Origin: a virus
Virus record (IMG/VR): IMGVR_UViG_3300042868_006535
Location: 1 to 28,594 of that record
Reading direction: 5' to 3' (one strand)
Length of the DNA stretch: 28,594 nt
Numbering within the stretch: position 1 is the stretch's first letter; each line of letters starts with the position of its first letter. The notes beneath the pieces are model-generated. The model had not been told where the DNA came from and did no database searches. It was given only the letters and a program-made list of their open reading frames with translations. Shown here piece by piece: positions 13,082-28,594 of the stretch. The position numbers and the translations under genes were made by a program.

Positions 13082-14185
13082 ATGGCTTACACAACACTGA
13101 GCGTTGCATATATCGACGGGGATGTTTTCTCTGCTGGCGACATCAACAATACAAACACCGTCGCTAATGCTTTAAGCAACGGCACAAACCAGGCGCTCAT
13201 CACAACTCAGGGTGACATCCTGACAGGTGGCGCAACAGCAAACGCCTTAGTGAAAACTGCTGTCGGTTCCAATAACACAGTTTTTTATGCAAACAGTGCG
13301 GCCTCTGGTGGCGTTTCATGGGGTTTGATAACGTCAGCAATGATCACTGATGCCACGATTACTGGCACAGACATTGCTTCAGGCACAATCACATCGACAA
13401 ACATTCTTGATGCCACAATCACTGGCACAGACATTGCGTCTGGCACAATCACATCGACAAACATTGCAAATGACACAATCGTTAATGCTGACATTAACTC
13501 TGCCGCAGGCATTGTTGATACAAAACTGGCGACCATCTCAACAGCAGGCAAAGTATCCAACAGCGCAACAACAGCAACAGCGAGTGATACGGCTTCAGCC
13601 ATTGTCGCCAGAGATGGAAGCAATTCATTCTACGCACGCACAGGATATTTTGAAGGTGGTTATCTCGGCGGTCTTGACTACACAAACGCAGTAAGTGCTG
13701 GCAATTCTGGTTCCCTGACAACTAATGGTGATGGAGTTATTCGTGTTGGCAAATTCTCAGCAAATGTAACTGGTATCACGATCAACCAACAGGGTGGGAG
13801 TAGTCCTGGATATCACATTTCTTTCTATCGCAGCGGTACGAATGTCGGCTCAATATCTGAGAACGGCTCGACTACTTCCTATAACACAACATCTGACTAC
13901 CGCCTCAAAGAGAATGTCAAAGACCTACAGGGTGCGCTTGCCACGATTGAGGCCTTGCAACCTAAGACGTACAACTTCATTGCAACGCCAGAAATAACCC
14001 AAGATGGATTCTTTGCACATGAACTTCAGTCGGTTGTTCCATATGCAGTCATTGGTGAAAAAGATGCACTAGATCAAGATGGCAACATCCAGCCACAGCA
14101 AGTCGATTACTCAAAACTCACTGGCTTACTTGTTGGTGCAGTCCAAGAGTTGTCTGCCCGTGTCAAAGAATTGGAGAAGAACTGA
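13082..14185 (+). CDS. Tail fibre/spike with C-terminal S74 intramolecular chaperone
   Basis: 367 residues. N-terminal adaptor DGDVFSAGDINNTNTVANAL (about 12-31), then a beta-repeat shaft with repeated TGTDIASGTITSTNI units (about 90-140), then a globular region. The C-terminal 97 residues are a peptidase S74 domain: SDYRLKENV with the predicted dyad Ser271/Lys276 (five residues apart as in endosialidase chaperones), IEALQPKTYNF, DGFFAHELQSVVPYAV, YSKLTGLLVGAVQELSARVKELE. In the family this domain trimerises the fibre and then cleaves itself off just before the Ser. RBS TAAGGAAAAAAC. Likely receptor-binding. Confidence 0.9.
   Translation: MAYTTLSVAYIDGDVFSAGDINNTNTVANALSNGTNQALITTQGDILTGGATANALVKTAVGSNNTVFYANSAASGGVSWGLITSAMITDATITGTDIASGTITSTNILDATITGTDIASGTITSTNIANDTIVNADINSAAGIVDTKLATISTAGKVSNSATTATASDTASAIVARDGSNSFYARTGYFEGGYLGGLDYTNAVSAGNSGSLTTNGDGVIRVGKFSANVTGITINQQGGSSPGYHISFYRSGTNVGSISENGSTTSYNTTSDYRLKENVKDLQGALATIEALQPKTYNFIATPEITQDGFFAHELQSVVPYAVIGEKDALDQDGNIQPQQVDYSKLTGLLVGAVQELSARVKELEKN
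13349..13468 (+). repeat. 60-bp tandem direct repeat in fibre gene
   Basis: Two adjacent 60-base units (13349-13408 and 13409-13468) differ at only a few positions and encode DATITGTDIASGTITSTNI(L/A) repeats of the fibre shaft. A degenerate third unit follows. Copy number could change by slippage or recombination and alter fibre length. Confidence 0.85.
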
Positions 14186-20062: not shown

Positions 20063-20091
20063 AACCCAACCCAACCCAACCCAACCCAACC
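20063..20091 (+). repeat. AACCC pentamer array ahead of first early gene
   Basis: Nearly six consecutive copies of AACCC, ending 19 bases before ATG 20111. Shorter versions of the same repeat precede the RBS of three other early genes (20369-20377, 21722-21734, 23361-23373). Confidence 0.85.
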
Positions 20092-21161: not shown

Positions 21162-21691
21162 GGATCGCAGCGGCACTGTGTGCCGCCGTACTCACCGCCT
21201 GCGCAACCGCAGCCAACGGTGCACCAGTCTCAGCACCAACCCAACCCAACCCGACCATCACACTCGAACCTGTAACAACCACAATGCCGCCAACCACATT
21301 GCCGCCAACAACAACCAGCACCACCACCACAACTGTCGCACCCGTGCTCGTACCGCCAGACACACCATGTGTCGAATGGTTACCGCTGGCCGTGCAGGTC
21401 GGCTGGCCCAACGACACCGACATCTTGCAGACGCTAGGTCAAATCATGTGGCGTGAATCAAGATGCCAACCCGACGCCTGCTCAAACTCTGACAGTGACC
21501 GACCCTGCCGTGACTACGGTTTGACACAGGGCAACTGGAAAGCGCACCACGAATGGTGGGCAGACCTCGGCATCACACCTGACGAAATGTTTGACCCTGC
21601 GACCAACCTGCGGTGGGCATACCTGCTATATTCCGGTAGGGAAGCCAGAGGGCAGTGCGGGTGGAAACCGTGGTCGAAGCCTTGCAACTAA
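21158..21691 (+). CDS. Secreted lipoprotein with lysozyme/transglycosylase-like domain
   Basis: 177 residues from ATG 21158. Signal sequence with lipobox (MRIAAALCAAVLTAC, Cys15 as lipidation site). Residues about 28-65 are a Thr/Pro-rich wall-spanning linker (TTTMPPTTLPPTTTSTTTTT). The C-terminal about 105 residues resemble goose-type/SLT lysozymes: IMWRESRCQP with a candidate catalytic Glu, DYGLTQGNWKAHHEWW, NLRWAYLLYS and the GQCGWKPWSKPC end with several Cys. Encoded with early genes, not with the lysis cassette. A role in superinfection exclusion or early wall remodelling is possible. The AACCC repeat also occurs inside this gene (21238-21252). Confidence 0.8.
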   Translation: MRIAAALCAAVLTACATAANGAPVSAPTQPNPTITLEPVTTTMPPTTLPPTTTSTTTTTVAPVLVPPDTPCVEWLPLAVQVGWPNDTDILQTLGQIMWRESRCQPDACSNSDSDRPCRDYGLTQGNWKAHHEWWADLGITPDEMFDPATNLRWAYLLYSGREARGQCGWKPWSKPCN

Positions 21692-21721
21692 CTCTGACAC
21701 ACCCCCTAGACACAATTACCT

Positions 21722-21734
21722 AACCCAACCCAAC
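21722..21734 (+). repeat. AACCC repeat upstream of exonuclease gene
   Basis: AACCCAACCCAAC, 20 bases before ATG 21755, in the 63-base gap after the lipoprotein gene. Same motif and similar place as at 20063, 20369 and 23361. Confidence 0.8.
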
Positions 21735-24509: not shown

Positions 24510-25012
24510 CCGTGACAACCACAAAAGGTTGGGCAGAACACGCCTCATGTCGTGGCCTTGACGCCGAAATCTTTATGGCGACCCGTGGCGACCTGCTCAA
24601 AATACGTGAAGCCAAAAAAATATGTGAACAATGCCCTGTGATGATGCAGTGCCGTGAATACTCACTGCACCTAGCACAGAACTATGACACCTATGGTGTT
24701 TTCGGTGGCTGGTCACGAAACGAACGAATCAACCATCTGCGCATGGTCGGTTTGCATGTCCGACGATGGGGTGGCACTGAACCATCGACTAACATCGGCA
24801 GTGGCAACCGTGGAGGCGCACACGGCACAGCGACAGCAGTGCGACGCCACCGCAGCCTCGACGAAACGTTGTGTGATGAATGTGAAGCAGGCGACCAGCG
24901 CAGGAAAATGAAAGTGGCACTCGCACGCCGACGACAAGCAGTGAAAAAACGAATGGAGGAAAACGATGGATCAGCAGTTGGCATATCCGAAAACTTTGCT
25001 GGTGATGCTTGA
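24506..25012 (+). CDS. WhiB-family transcription factor
   Basis: 168 residues from ATG 24506. Four conserved Cys of the iron-sulfur cluster: Cys15 (ASCRGLD), Cys40 and Cys43 (CEQC), Cys49, followed by the WhiB turn GVFGGWS at 64-70. The FMATRGDLLKIREAKKICEQCP segment is typical. A C-terminal extension of about 85 residues is basic and carries a second CxxC (CDEC near 137-140) and an RRKMKVALARRRQ helix. WhiB proteins are confined to actinobacteria and their phages and bind the primary sigma factor; phage versions (such as that of mycobacteriophage TM4) alter host septation and block superinfection. This indicates the host phylum. Confidence 0.93.
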   Translation: MTVTTTKGWAEHASCRGLDAEIFMATRGDLLKIREAKKICEQCPVMMQCREYSLHLAQNYDTYGVFGGWSRNERINHLRMVGLHVRRWGGTEPSTNIGSGNRGGAHGTATAVRRHRSLDETLCDECEAGDQRRKMKVALARRRQAVKKRMEENDGSAVGISENFAGDA

Positions 25013-25238
25013 ACAAGCACAGGCCGAAAACGCCAGAATCACCGCAGAACTAGAAACCATGACAGCAGACCGTGACAAATGGCAGAACGCCGCAAAAGGC
25101 TGGTACGAAAACAGTGGCCAGTGGTTGAAACGTTGGCGTCACGAACGAGAAAAAAATGCCTGGCAACAACGAAAGATCGACAAGATCATGGGCTGGAATC
25201 TGACAGGCGACGAGACAGACGACGAGGGCGACGAATGA
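24966..25238 (+). CDS. Coiled-coil protein with acidic tail
   Basis: 90 residues, ATG 24966 with GGAGGA at 24955-24960. Coiled coil from about 14 to 70 (VMLEQAQAENARITAELETM, WLKRWRHEREKNAWQQRKI), ending in TGDETDDEGDE. It overlaps the WhiB gene by 47 bases out of frame. Possibly a DNA-mimic-like acidic tail or a partner of WhiB; unknown. Confidence 0.68.
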   Translation: MDQQLAYPKTLLVMLEQAQAENARITAELETMTADRDKWQNAAKGWYENSGQWLKRWRHEREKNAWQQRKIDKIMGWNLTGDETDDEGDE

Positions 25239-25510
25239 CAACGAAACGCAAACGACCTAGTACCCGCAAACCTTGTTTCAGTTGGTCTAACCTCGCCGAC
25301 ACACAATTCGCACCCATACTCGACACAGAGAACTATGCCCTACCAACCATCTCAGATTGGGCGAGATTCTTTGACGTGCACACCACGCAGATATACCGCT
25401 GGCGAGAAAAAGGGATACCCGAAAAACAAGCAGACAGGATCGCCGTCAAATATCTACGCACCCATCCAGCCCTCATCTGGCCTGAATGGTTCGACACGGC
25501 ACCCAAATGA
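25235..25510 (+). CDS. Helix-turn-helix DNA-binding protein
   Basis: 91 residues from ATG 25235 (ATGA overlap). TISDWARFFDVHTTQIYRWR, EKGIPEKQADRIAVKYLRTHPALIWPEWFD (about 37-85) is a helix-turn-helix with recognition helix TTQIYRWREK, followed by the LGLHPxxxWPEW-type tail known from small actinophage HTH proteins. The N-terminus is basic (MTTKRKRPSTRKP). Candidate binder of the palindromic operator at 19982-20000 or of the repeats at 28296-28515. Confidence 0.82.
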   Translation: MTTKRKRPSTRKPCFSWSNLADTQFAPILDTENYALPTISDWARFFDVHTTQIYRWREKGIPEKQADRIAVKYLRTHPALIWPEWFDTAPK

Positions 25511-25839
25511 CGAACCCGCAGAAACGCAAAGGCGACGCCGCCGAACGAGAACTCGCCAAACAACTCGAAGCCCTCCTCGGTTTCAAAGTAAGACGCAAAC
25601 TCGGCGCCGGCAGACAAGACGACACAGGCGACATCGACGGACTGCCCGACTGCACCGCACAAGCAAAAAACTATGCAGACATCCTCAGAGCAATCAACCA
25701 GGGACTCAAAGACACCGCCACCCAACAACAAAACGCAGACACCACCCACGCAGTACTATTCGTCAGGCGACGAGGCGGGCAATGGATCGCCATACAAACA
25801 CTGGAACAGTGGACAATCACCTACCGTGAAACCCTCTAA
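25507..25839 (+). CDS. Holliday junction resolvase-like PD-(D/E)XK nuclease
   Basis: 110 residues from ATG 25507 (ATGA overlap). KRKGDAAERELAKQLEALLG (first catalytic Glu), GRQDDTGDIDGLP (Asp), then CTAQAKNY, the usual (D/E)xK strand with Gln in place of Glu. This is the arrangement of archaeal Hjc/VRR-type phage resolvases. Likely resolves branched DNA before packaging. The Gln may weaken activity or be the normal variant of this subfamily. The next gene, the primase, starts 20 bases on. Confidence 0.78.
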   Translation: MTNPQKRKGDAAERELAKQLEALLGFKVRRKLGAGRQDDTGDIDGLPDCTAQAKNYADILRAINQGLKDTATQQQNADTTHAVLFVRRRGGQWIAIQTLEQWTITYRETL

Positions 25840-25859
25840 ACAAAAGAAACGGCAGCACC

Positions 25860-28571
25860 GTGACCAACCAACCGACAACCCAACCAACGCCCAACATCCT
25901 CATTAGCGCCCTCAACCTCGCCCAACATGACCTCCCCGTCATACCAATCCGACCCAAACAAAAACACCCACCAATGGCCGCCTGGCAACACGCCGCCACC
26001 ACCAACGCCGAAACCATCACCAACTGGTACACAGGTCTCTACCGTGGCCACGGCATCGGTGTCGCCACAGGACACCCACACAAACAACCCGACCGCTACC
26101 TGTTCGTCATAGACATCGATGAACACAACCCCGAAACATCAGGCAGCGACACCCTCCACGAACTATGCCAAACCTACGGGCAACTCCCTACCACCGTTGA
26201 AGCACACACAGGCAGCGGAGGGCGTCACCTCTACTTCACGTCACCAGAACCCGTACGGAACGACGCAGGGAAAAAACTAGGTGCAGGCATCGACATCCGT
26301 GGAGAAGGCGGCCAGGTCCTCGCACCACCAACCCTGCACCCCAACGGCAACCCGTACACGTGGGATACAGAAAACCACCCTGACACCACACCCATCGCCC
26401 ACGCACCCGACTGGCTCATCGCACTCCTCACACCTAGAAACACAACACCCTCACACCTAGAAACAACCACACCCAAACACACGCCGAACATCTGGCACCA
26501 AATAGACGACGGACCAGCCGCCACCTACAACAACCAAACAACATGGCAACAACTACTCGAAACCGATGGATGGACCTTGCACCACACCGACACCAACGGC
26601 GAACAACACTGGACCAGACCAGGCAAAACCACACGAGAAGGCACCAGCGCCACCGTCGGATACAAAAATACTGACGCCCTCAAAGTATTCACATCAACGA
26701 TCACATGGCTACCAGAGGGCGCATACTCCCGTTTCGGGTACTACGCCTGCCGACACCACAACGGCGACCGGTCAGCAGCCGCCAGAGAACTACGCCAAAC
26801 CCAACAACCCGTCACAACCAGCACCATCATCGGCGACACCACCACACCAGATGAACCGTGGCCCACACCCATCCCACTGCACGACACCAACACACCACCA
26901 GAGTTCCCGTTGCACACATTTCCCGAATGGATACGCAACCAGATTGAACAAACCTCCACCGACCTACAAGTAGCACCCGACCTCCCCGCCACCCTCGCAC
27001 TCGGCGCCCTATCCGTCGCAGCCCTCGGCAAAACACGAGTCACATACCCACGTCAACGGTGGACACAACCACTGAACCTCTACACCGCCGTCGCACTCCC
27101 ACCATCAGCAGGCAAATCACCAGCCAAAAATGCGATGTTCGCACCCCTAGAAACACTCGAACAACAACGCCTCAAAGACGCCGCCACAACCAAAATGCGT
27201 GCAGAAACAGAACGCTCGATCTTAGAAAAAAGACGCAAACAACTTGAGGACAAGGCCGCCAAAAACGGTGACGACGCCGCCGCCGCAATGTACGACCTGC
27301 ACAACCTCAACGACCAACTGGCACAACTGCAACACCCACCATCAGGTCGCCTCCTAGCAGACGACGCCACCACCGAAGCCCTCGGTGTCGCACTCGCCGA
27401 AGCAGGCGGCCACATCGCCGTCGTCAGCGCCGAAGGCGGACTATTCGACCGCATCGCCGGAATGTACACAGACGGACCAGCAAACCTCGACCTATACCTA
27501 GAAGGCTGGTCGGGTGGCCGATACGTCGTGGACAGAATCAAACGAGAACCAATCAACATCCCCGCAGCCAACCTGGTCGTCGTCACCACAGTCCAACCCA
27601 CAGTGCTCGACGCAATCGGCAACAGTAAAAACCTCACAGGCCGTGGACTCGTCGCCAGGTTCCTACTCTCACAACCCACCAACAACGTCGGCACCCGTGA
27701 CCGCCTACGCCACACCACAGGCGACGAACACACCACCCGCAATTACGAACTACACCTCACAGAAATCGCCCAACACCTACACAACAACCCCACCACCACC
27801 ACCATCACCGACCAGACCAGCGACATGTTCGCCCAATGGGACCAACAACTAGAAAACCGTGGCGCACCAGGCGCAGACCTAGAACACCTCAACGAATGGA
27901 CCGGCAAACTACGCGCCTCAGTCATCCGCATCGCCGCCCTACTCCACCACGCCAACCACAACCACACCACCCTCATCGACACAACCACAATGAACAACGC
28001 CATCCAAATCGGCAACTACTACCTAGAACACGCCAGACACATCGCCGACCGATGGGGAACCGACGACAACATCAAACAAGCCCGCCGCATCCTCGAATGG
28101 TTCACCCGCCTAGACGACACCACATTCACCGTCAGAGACCTCTACAGCGCCAACAGGCGCCTGTTCCCCACCGCCGACGACACACGCCAACCCCTAGAAC
28201 TACTCCACGAACGAGGATGGATCAGACCACTATTCGACGGGCCACTGATCATCGGGCGACGTGGGAAAGAATCACCACGGTTCGCAATCCACCCTAGTTG
28301 CGCGCCATGCGCGCCATGCGCGCACCCAAACCCACAAAACGACACCGACAACACCCAACCAGTTGCGCGCCATGCGCGCCATGCGCGCACCCCCCCTAGG
28401 GGTGAGGAGGGTGCCATGAGTGGCATGCCTAGACAGGAGATTGAAACCCACATACATACATATGATTCTCTCTCTAACCCCCCCACCCCCTGCGCGCATG
28501 ACGCGCATGGCGCGCATGACACCAACAATCCACCCACCCCATCAGACAACGACGACCTCGGACTGTTCTGA
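25860..28571 (+). CDS. Primase-polymerase / DUF3987 helicase-like fusion
   Basis: 903 residues from GTG 25860. N-terminal PrimPol domain: VIDIDEH (Asp85, Asp87), TGSGGRHLYF (His123), GIDIRGEGGQVLAPPTLHPN (about 143-162). A zinc/linker region follows (about 180-330). The DUF3987 domain from about 360 has a Walker A-like PPSAGKS (about 413-420), VVSAEGGLFDRIAG and GLVARFLLSQP. It likely both primes and unwinds at the phage origin; no separate polymerase gene is present. The C-terminus after about 810 is low complexity (CAPCAPCA, RHARHAR), dictated by DNA repeats. Very C/A-rich coding strand. Confidence 0.92.
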   Translation: MTNQPTTQPTPNILISALNLAQHDLPVIPIRPKQKHPPMAAWQHAATTNAETITNWYTGLYRGHGIGVATGHPHKQPDRYLFVIDIDEHNPETSGSDTLHELCQTYGQLPTTVEAHTGSGGRHLYFTSPEPVRNDAGKKLGAGIDIRGEGGQVLAPPTLHPNGNPYTWDTENHPDTTPIAHAPDWLIALLTPRNTTPSHLETTTPKHTPNIWHQIDDGPAATYNNQTTWQQLLETDGWTLHHTDTNGEQHWTRPGKTTREGTSATVGYKNTDALKVFTSTITWLPEGAYSRFGYYACRHHNGDRSAAARELRQTQQPVTTSTIIGDTTTPDEPWPTPIPLHDTNTPPEFPLHTFPEWIRNQIEQTSTDLQVAPDLPATLALGALSVAALGKTRVTYPRQRWTQPLNLYTAVALPPSAGKSPAKNAMFAPLETLEQQRLKDAATTKMRAETERSILEKRRKQLEDKAAKNGDDAAAAMYDLHNLNDQLAQLQHPPSGRLLADDATTEALGVALAEAGGHIAVVSAEGGLFDRIAGMYTDGPANLDLYLEGWSGGRYVVDRIKREPINIPAANLVVVTTVQPTVLDAIGNSKNLTGRGLVARFLLSQPTNNVGTRDRLRHTTGDEHTTRNYELHLTEIAQHLHNNPTTTTITDQTSDMFAQWDQQLENRGAPGADLEHLNEWTGKLRASVIRIAALLHHANHNHTTLIDTTTMNNAIQIGNYYLEHARHIADRWGTDDNIKQARRILEWFTRLDDTTFTVRDLYSANRRLFPTADDTRQPLELLHERGWIRPLFDGPLIIGRRGKESPRFAIHPSCAPCAPCAHPNPQNDTDNTQPVARHARHARTPPRGEEGAMSGMPRQEIETHIHTYDSLSNPPTPCAHDAHGAHDTNNPPTPSDNDDLGLF
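28296..28515 (+). repeat. GCGCGC/CAT repeat cluster, two direct copies and one inverted
   Basis: A 32-base sequence with three GCGCGC blocks joined by CAT is perfectly repeated at 28296-28327 and 28361-28392 (65 bases apart). The reverse complement of 28491-28515 matches 24 of 25 bases of its core (28300-28324). It lies in the low-complexity 3' end of the primase gene, at the point before strand composition flips. Iteron-like and potentially an origin or a regulator-binding cluster; function inferred only. Confidence 0.8.
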
Positions 28572-28594
28572 AACAACCCCCCTAACAAAAAAAA

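Follow-up and report, generated by a model that had tools for sequence, protein, structure and literature searches.

The stretch of DNA investigated in this study (the window) is a virus record of 28,594 bases, which encodes a portal protein and long open reading frames of structural type and whose carrier is thus a tailed phage. Its last gene codes for a protein of 903 amino acids and terminates with a stop codon at position 28571. In Pfam, the product matches PrimPol at its N-terminus (PF09250, 3.8e-42, amino acids 17-185) and DUF3987 further along (PF13148, 2.9e-85, amino acids 370-729; 287 bits at a cut-off of 27), and its PHROG labels are DNA primase and DNA helicase. In the relatives L067 and L077, the primase gene leads straight into an HNH gene resembling the one located at the start of the window, which makes it probable that the window's two ends adjoin each other in a genome that is circular or permuted. 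Two other repeats were observed elsewhere in the window. A 60-bp tandem repeat of about two copies resides at 13348-13480 within the open reading frame 13082-14185, and ACCCAACCCAAC is found in 11 matches with at most one mismatch (0.74 expected), all on the plus strand and nearly all within 20.0-23.4 kb (20064-20090, 20370, 21239-21255, 21718-21734 and 23362), which are possibly regulatory sites of early genes. The features of the primase-helicase gene and its 3' end are:

25860..28571, plus strand: proposed initiator gene, comprising PrimPol, DUF3987 helicase, winged helix and a low-complexity tail that would encode the origin (Pfam, PHROG, AlphaFold)
28047..28295, plus strand: coding sequence of the C-terminal winged helix (amino acids about 730-812), the proposed iteron reader (models; tracking of the unit type)
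28299..28323, plus strand: iteron block 1, TGCGCGCCATGCGCGCCATGCGCGC, 2.8 direct copies of the unit TGCGCGCCA, frame TGC-GCG-CCA
28364..28388, plus strand: iteron block 2, 25 nt identical to block 1 in a shifted frame
28389..28407, plus strand: C/G tract ACCCCCCCTAGGGGTGAGG adjoining block 2 (CCTAAGGGGGGA in relatives)
28438..28477, plus strand: putative DNA unwinding element, 40 nt with the highest AT content in the kilobase around it (68% compared to a mean of 41%)
28478..28490, plus strand: C tract CCCCCCCACCCCC abutting the inverted iterons
28491..28518, minus strand: iteron block 3, TGCGCGCATGACGCGCATGGCGCGCATG, with three inverted units CATGCGCGC, CATGCGCGT and CATGCGCGC

All three blocks are contained within the last 276 nt of the PrimPol-DUF3987 gene, upstream of its stop codon. 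The full identity shared by blocks 1 and 2 extends over 32 nt (28296-28327 and 28361-28392), and block 3 is complementary to them at 25 of 26 positions. Allowing for up to three mismatches, CATGCGCGCCATGCGCGC matches the window six times, each time in the array region, compared to a mean of 0.05 and a maximum of 1 in 100 shuffles, and the five exact copies of the 9-mer TGCGCGCCA are confined to the same region. The two direct and one inverted repeat described in the original prediction at the end of this gene are thus real and far above the level of shuffled sequences; the span assigned to them, 28296-28515, covers the array region but stops 3 nt before the end of block 3. Equally borne out is the claim that DNA is conserved while the peptide varies between copies, as near-identical DNA is translated into CAPCAPCAH in block 1, VARHARHAR in block 2 and CAHDAHGAHD in block 3.

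The same relationship is found in other members of the phage clade. In the relative L002/L067 (84% identical), block 2 and the first units of block 3 are composed of the unit TGCGTACCA and block 1 of TGCGTGCCATGCGTAC. Relatives with DUF3987 at 41-62% identity contain arrays of ATGTCGCGC, TGTCGGTCA, GCGTGTCGC or TCATGCGCG at the same place in varying frames, and CGTGTCGTC arrays are located at the equivalent spot in further DUF3987 relatives. Between relatives, the unit sequence shifts coherently (TGCGTACCA, ATGTCGCGC, TGTCGGTCA, TCATGCGCG) while the place of the array is maintained. A scan of 2.9 million viral contigs with the 25-mer, based on DNA only, retrieved four contigs, and in all four the match lies within the 3' end of a primase-DUF3987 gene. 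Among them is L007/L063, a relative of about 45% identity with block 1 in another frame, which is translated there as ARHARHAR rather than CAPCAPCAH. In both L074 and L071, one 23-nt array is found in two frames of a single gene. Repeats that persist in homologues with changed frames, as had been suggested for a check, were therefore encountered in L007/L063, L074 and L071, and in many distant relatives the array is located past the stop codon. As judged from these sequences, the pattern is best explained by selection that would act on the DNA of the arrays and not on the encoded peptide. A close relative of the gene and array of phage L064 is also present in L078 (CAIXIJ010000087.1), which is a contig from the genome of an uncultured member of the Acidimicrobiaceae, hinting at Acidimicrobiia as hosts of the L064 phage group.

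The surroundings of the arrays show further properties of a replication origin. The AT-rich stretch at 28438-28477, located between blocks 2 and 3, contains an element with a period of 4 nt (ACATACATACATAT...CTCTCTCT). Across the remaining loci of this analysis, the AT maximum likewise falls between the direct and the inverted arrays or immediately adjacent to them; it departs from this in L068, where it precedes the array by a short distance, and in the truncated locus L070. At the position of the C/G tract, the 9-mers AAGGGGGGA and CCCCCCTTA are found in six of 11 clade genomes and are absent elsewhere in 348 kb, and the core of the C tract, CCCCACCCC, is present at the locus in nine of the 11 genomes with no occurrence in the remaining 348 kb. 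Both tracts flank the AT-rich stretch and pair as the neck of a predicted stem-loop in most of the relatives that were folded.

Perfect DnaA boxes (TTATCCACA) cluster at the same location in relatives: in 15 contigs, the 10.8 kb that surround the gene end contain 13 copies, compared to four in the remaining 364 kb (Fisher p 2e-17, related genomes counted separately). They reside beside the arrays in eight clade relatives, fall in more than one frame and once extend across the stop codon. An unbiased search for 9-mers identified GTGGATAAC, which seven of 11 genomes contain at the locus, with no further occurrence in 348 kb. No DnaA box is present in the window or in its closest relatives; such boxes are common but not universal near iterons and are thus not defining for an iteron origin.

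In nine of 11 genomes, the gene end lies no more than 1 kb from the minimum of the cumulative GC skew. The other two, G812 and G813, contain arrays with no turn of the skew and have hardly any skew. In the window, the GC skew at third codon positions is -0.69 in the primase gene and, on the far side of the junction, +0.44 in the terminase gene, and since both genes are encoded on the plus strand, the turn is also found at silent sites. In most genomes, the skew maximum is found 61-75% of the way around the circle instead of at 50%, and codon usage or transcription may account for part of the skew. Since related genomes were counted separately, the odds in the tests of DnaA boxes and skew are overstated, although their direction is clear; the relatedness of clade members makes several of the p-values given here overstate independence. 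As a separate observation, the third-position skew is very strong in 25000-28594 and 1-2000 of the window, where it flips at the putative origin and fades within a few kb on the right, which may reflect strand exposure during replication start.

A candidate for the protein part that reads the iterons is encoded directly upstream of the arrays. The stretch coding for the C-terminal winged helix ends 3 nt before the first repeat, and the modelled stretch likewise stops one codon short of this repeat. AlphaFold models (mean pLDDT 88.6 for the DUF3987 part with the C-terminus, and 88.0) predict it as a helix-strand-helix-helix-strand-strand arrangement, corresponding to residues 383-457 of the model of DUF3987 and C-terminus. 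The helicase core is predicted by the same approach to have an MCM fold: its model superimposes on the MCM structure 6mii with a VIA Z of 19.1 and an rmsd of 3.5 over 267 residues, and the Foldseek matches listed are MCM. At the level of sequence, a search of the PDB with the helicase profile gave matches at chance level only and none to MCM. The model of the winged helix shows a similar degree of resemblance to Z-DNA-binding Z-alpha domains (Z 8.5) and to the winged helices of MCM (Z 9.6), and the window unit CATGCGCGC alternates between purine and pyrimidine, which is probably a coincidence; reading of Z-DNA is not favoured, since units of the TGTC-type lack this alternation throughout.

The assignment of the reader was approached by a comparison of domains. 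L063 and L064, which share the CATGCGCG-type unit of the window, are 37-40% identical to the window group in the core and 53-62% in the winged helix, whereas phages with TGTC-type units are 57-71% identical to it in the core and 39-51% in the winged helix. When labels were permuted, the association of unit type and winged helix was found in 4/924 cases, and in 4/70 with fewer, more distinct phages. From this comparison, the unit type appears to track the winged helix and not the helicase core, and the likely reader of the iterons would be the winged helix at the C-terminus of the DUF3987 part (amino acids about 730-812) and not the PrimPol domain. As the winged helix adjoins the arrays, recombination that transfers both as one segment could explain their joint variation instead of co-evolution, but either of them makes winged helix and arrays one functional unit. 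A role of the PrimPol domain as reader was rejected, because L022-L048, which contain the same PrimPol combined with a different helicase domain, lack any 9-bp-period run of at least 12, and because in the Streptomyces plasmid L094, where PrimPol and DUF3987 are encoded by separate genes, the iterons follow the DUF3987 gene. The small HTH protein at 25235-25510 was likewise discarded, as it has no domain match in Pfam or PHROG and is not needed, since plasmids and phages in which DUF3987 genes have different neighbours also show arrays behind these genes. Hence, from the original proposal of either the PrimPol/helicase or the HTH protein as reader, the gene's own product stands as best explanation, whereas its PrimPol domain and the HTH protein are not favoured.

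To place the window into the context of the family, DUF3987 loci were gathered by protein or family search irrespective of repeats, resulting in 71 loci in 56 clusters at 70% identity, and the region from the domain end to 400 nt past the stop codon was analysed, with significance defined by dinucleotide shuffles. A period of 9 is significant at 22 of 55 of these 3' regions, compared to 0 to 7 for other periods between 5 and 24, the highest being 18, a multiple of 9, and compared to five of 56 control regions inside the domain and one of 47 further downstream. The period leads still (12 of 54) if only the 400 nt past the stop are counted, and since arrays in this region keep their 9-bp period, it is not an effect of codons. 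Most of the period-9 clusters (17 of 22) are found outside the phage clade of the window across phyla, one of which (L124) is doubtful, as its control region has an equal score. An inverted copy is significant in the majority of period-9 clusters. Examples of the units are:

TGACAAAAC with inverted GTTTTGTCA: Acinetobacter plasmid (L141)
TGACAGAAC: Streptomyces plasmid (L094)
GGGACAGAA: Tsukamurella (L095)
GTGACAAAA around a long AT-rich stretch: gut phage (L096)
GGTTTTGAA: Bartonella plasmid (L098)
ACGAATTAT: actinobacterial genome (L128)

The rule is not universal, since arrays are absent from the T1-like phages L134-L137 and from the E. coli and Citrobacter plasmid loci L140 and L143. Some DUF3987 genes show other unit lengths at the same place (a period of 11 in L118, of 8 in L119 and L120 and of 11 in L139 with CCTCTACCTTT), and a spacing of 21 nt is also in excess (six clusters).

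Together, the locus displays several direct repeats near an initiator gene and an AT-rich element next to the iterons, as found in iteron origins. We thus consider it very probable from the analysed sequences that 28296-28518 constitutes an iteron replication origin inside the 3' end of the initiator gene, which would be read by the winged helix of its own protein. The proposal of an origin bound by the product of the gene hence provides the best explanation of the data, with which the AT-rich stretch, the DnaA boxes of relatives, the turn of the skew and the link to the winged helix agree. Based on related systems, we infer a process where the winged helix would bind the 9-bp iterons of blocks 1 and 2 as well as, on the far side, the oppositely oriented iterons of block 3. 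Such binding would load MCM-like DUF3987 hexamers facing each other across the AT-rich stretch at 28438-28477, melt this stretch and allow the fused PrimPol to prime; initiation would be bidirectional.

Among the rival explanations, the one that survives best is an origin of the pRN1-type, in which the inverted arms form a hairpin or cruciform with an AT/CT-rich loop and the protein would recognise this structure instead of double-stranded iterons. In pRN1, a 100-nt stem-loop located just downstream of the gene for a PrimPol-helicase-winged-helix protein is needed for replication (PMC4234260), and all 10 clade sequences that were folded as single-stranded DNA form stable stem-loops (z -4.4 to -10.1) composed of iteron arms, usually a neck of G/C tracts, and a loop. 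However, direct arrays located outside of the stem (block 1, and several arrays of L074 and L070) follow the changes of the unit despite needing no partner, the pairing of arms is imperfect in L074 and L071 with each unit retaining its TGTC core, and in L095, L132 and L138 there are direct arrays with no detectable inverted arm. We thus regard recognition of the structure as unlikely, although it is not exclusive of iteron binding, and the strong stem-loop potential in the clade suggests that hairpin formation may take part in the process.

The arrays could alternatively serve in regulation or copy control only, as a locus of autoregulation or handcuffing similar to crr of phage P4, with the origin residing elsewhere. 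Their location at the end of a replication gene would suit such a role, and iterons of plasmids often regulate copy number too, but it appears improbable in light of the AT-rich stretch between the arrays, the DnaA boxes of relatives and the turn of the skew, which coincide at the locus. Even less probable is an RNA element (an attenuator, terminator or riboswitch) at the transcript end: although the RNA of 28290-28530 folds with a z of -7.5, there is no match in Rfam, the inverted arrays in the DNA account for the fold, and the unpaired array, the DnaA boxes and the turn of the skew would be left unexplained. A tail selected as protein, for instance for Cys/His motifs, or generated by slippage in a disordered segment would be in line with its low complexity and with 9 bp equalling three codons, but it is contradicted by single arrays read in two frames (L074, L071), by inverted copies encoding different peptides and by the 9-bp period kept past the stop codon, and we have rejected it as scarcely credible.

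The proposed iteron origin shares features with several known systems. In SaPI and PICI elements, the origin directly follows rep, two sets of iterons flank an AT-rich region and the C-terminal domain of Rep reads the iterons (PMC7581432, PMC6092414). The window resembles this rep-ori module in the two iteron sets flanking an AT-rich region at the 3' end of a gene for an initiator-helicase. In contrast, its putative origin is located inside the coding sequence, its MCM-like DUF3987 helicase is fused to PrimPol and its carrier is a tailed phage encoding a portal protein, unlike the phage-inducible satellites, which are without structural genes of their own. The DUF3987 loci of our survey look like further cases beside the SaPI/PICI module. 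In phage lambda, iterons and an AT-rich stretch are located inside the initiator gene O (PMC7466680), as are the three blocks of the window, which precede the stop codon of the coding sequence. However, in lambda the origin is found in the middle of O, which is no helicase, whereas in the window it would reside in the 3' tail of a gene encoding a primase-helicase, with 9-bp units in both orientations. An O-like initiator recruiting a separate helicase does not describe the window, where the protein itself contains PrimPol and DUF3987. The putative origin of the window is best explained as a SaPI/PICI-like rep-ori layout that would have been relocated into the gene, with lambda O as a parallel.

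The alpha protein of phage P4 was compared by description only; it contains a Toprim-type primase, in which it differs from the window protein. Common to both is that a primase-helicase initiator binds repeats, which in P4 are ori and crr (named in PMC6092414 and PMC4234260) and which in the window would be the iterons. In SCCmec, the C-terminal domain of Cch2, the helicase of a mobile element, binds direct repeats of a putative origin that closely follows the gene for Cch2 (PMC7581432), but Cch2 belongs to a different helicase family by description, its iteron AAGTG has 5 nt and the primase is a separate polymerase pair. ORF904 of pRN1 similarly combines PrimPol, helicase and a C-terminal winged helix in one protein and is accompanied by a stem-loop of similar size (PMC4234260). 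Yet, in pRN1 the origin directly follows the gene, is devoid of iterons and is served by an SF3 helicase, whereas in the window the stem-loop is within the gene, iterons are present and the helicase is an MCM-like DUF3987. For DUF3987 itself, PMC5862659 predicts a helicase and suggests that winged helices of PrimPol proteins recognise origins; a keyword look at part of the open literature naming DUF3987 found no report linking it to iterons or an origin.

Collectively, our results lead us to favour, with less confidence than for the origin in the window, a general role of DUF3987 (YfjI-type) proteins as widespread MCM-like, self-loading initiator helicases, which in phages, plasmids and islands of several phyla would carry their own origin at the 3' end of their gene or within this end, with opposed arrays of 9-bp iterons enclosing an AT-rich stretch. 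The origin of the clade would add a conserved stem-loop, thus linking the SaPI-type and the pRN1-type. If this is true, a family that is still annotated as of unknown function would gain a job as initiator helicase, and 9-bp repeats at the gene end would provide a rule for finding origins in phages, plasmids and islands containing DUF3987. The family would also offer a large set of naturally paired winged helices and units from which changes of specificity could be learned, and in the phage described here, one stretch of DNA would both encode the tail of a protein and be read by that same protein.
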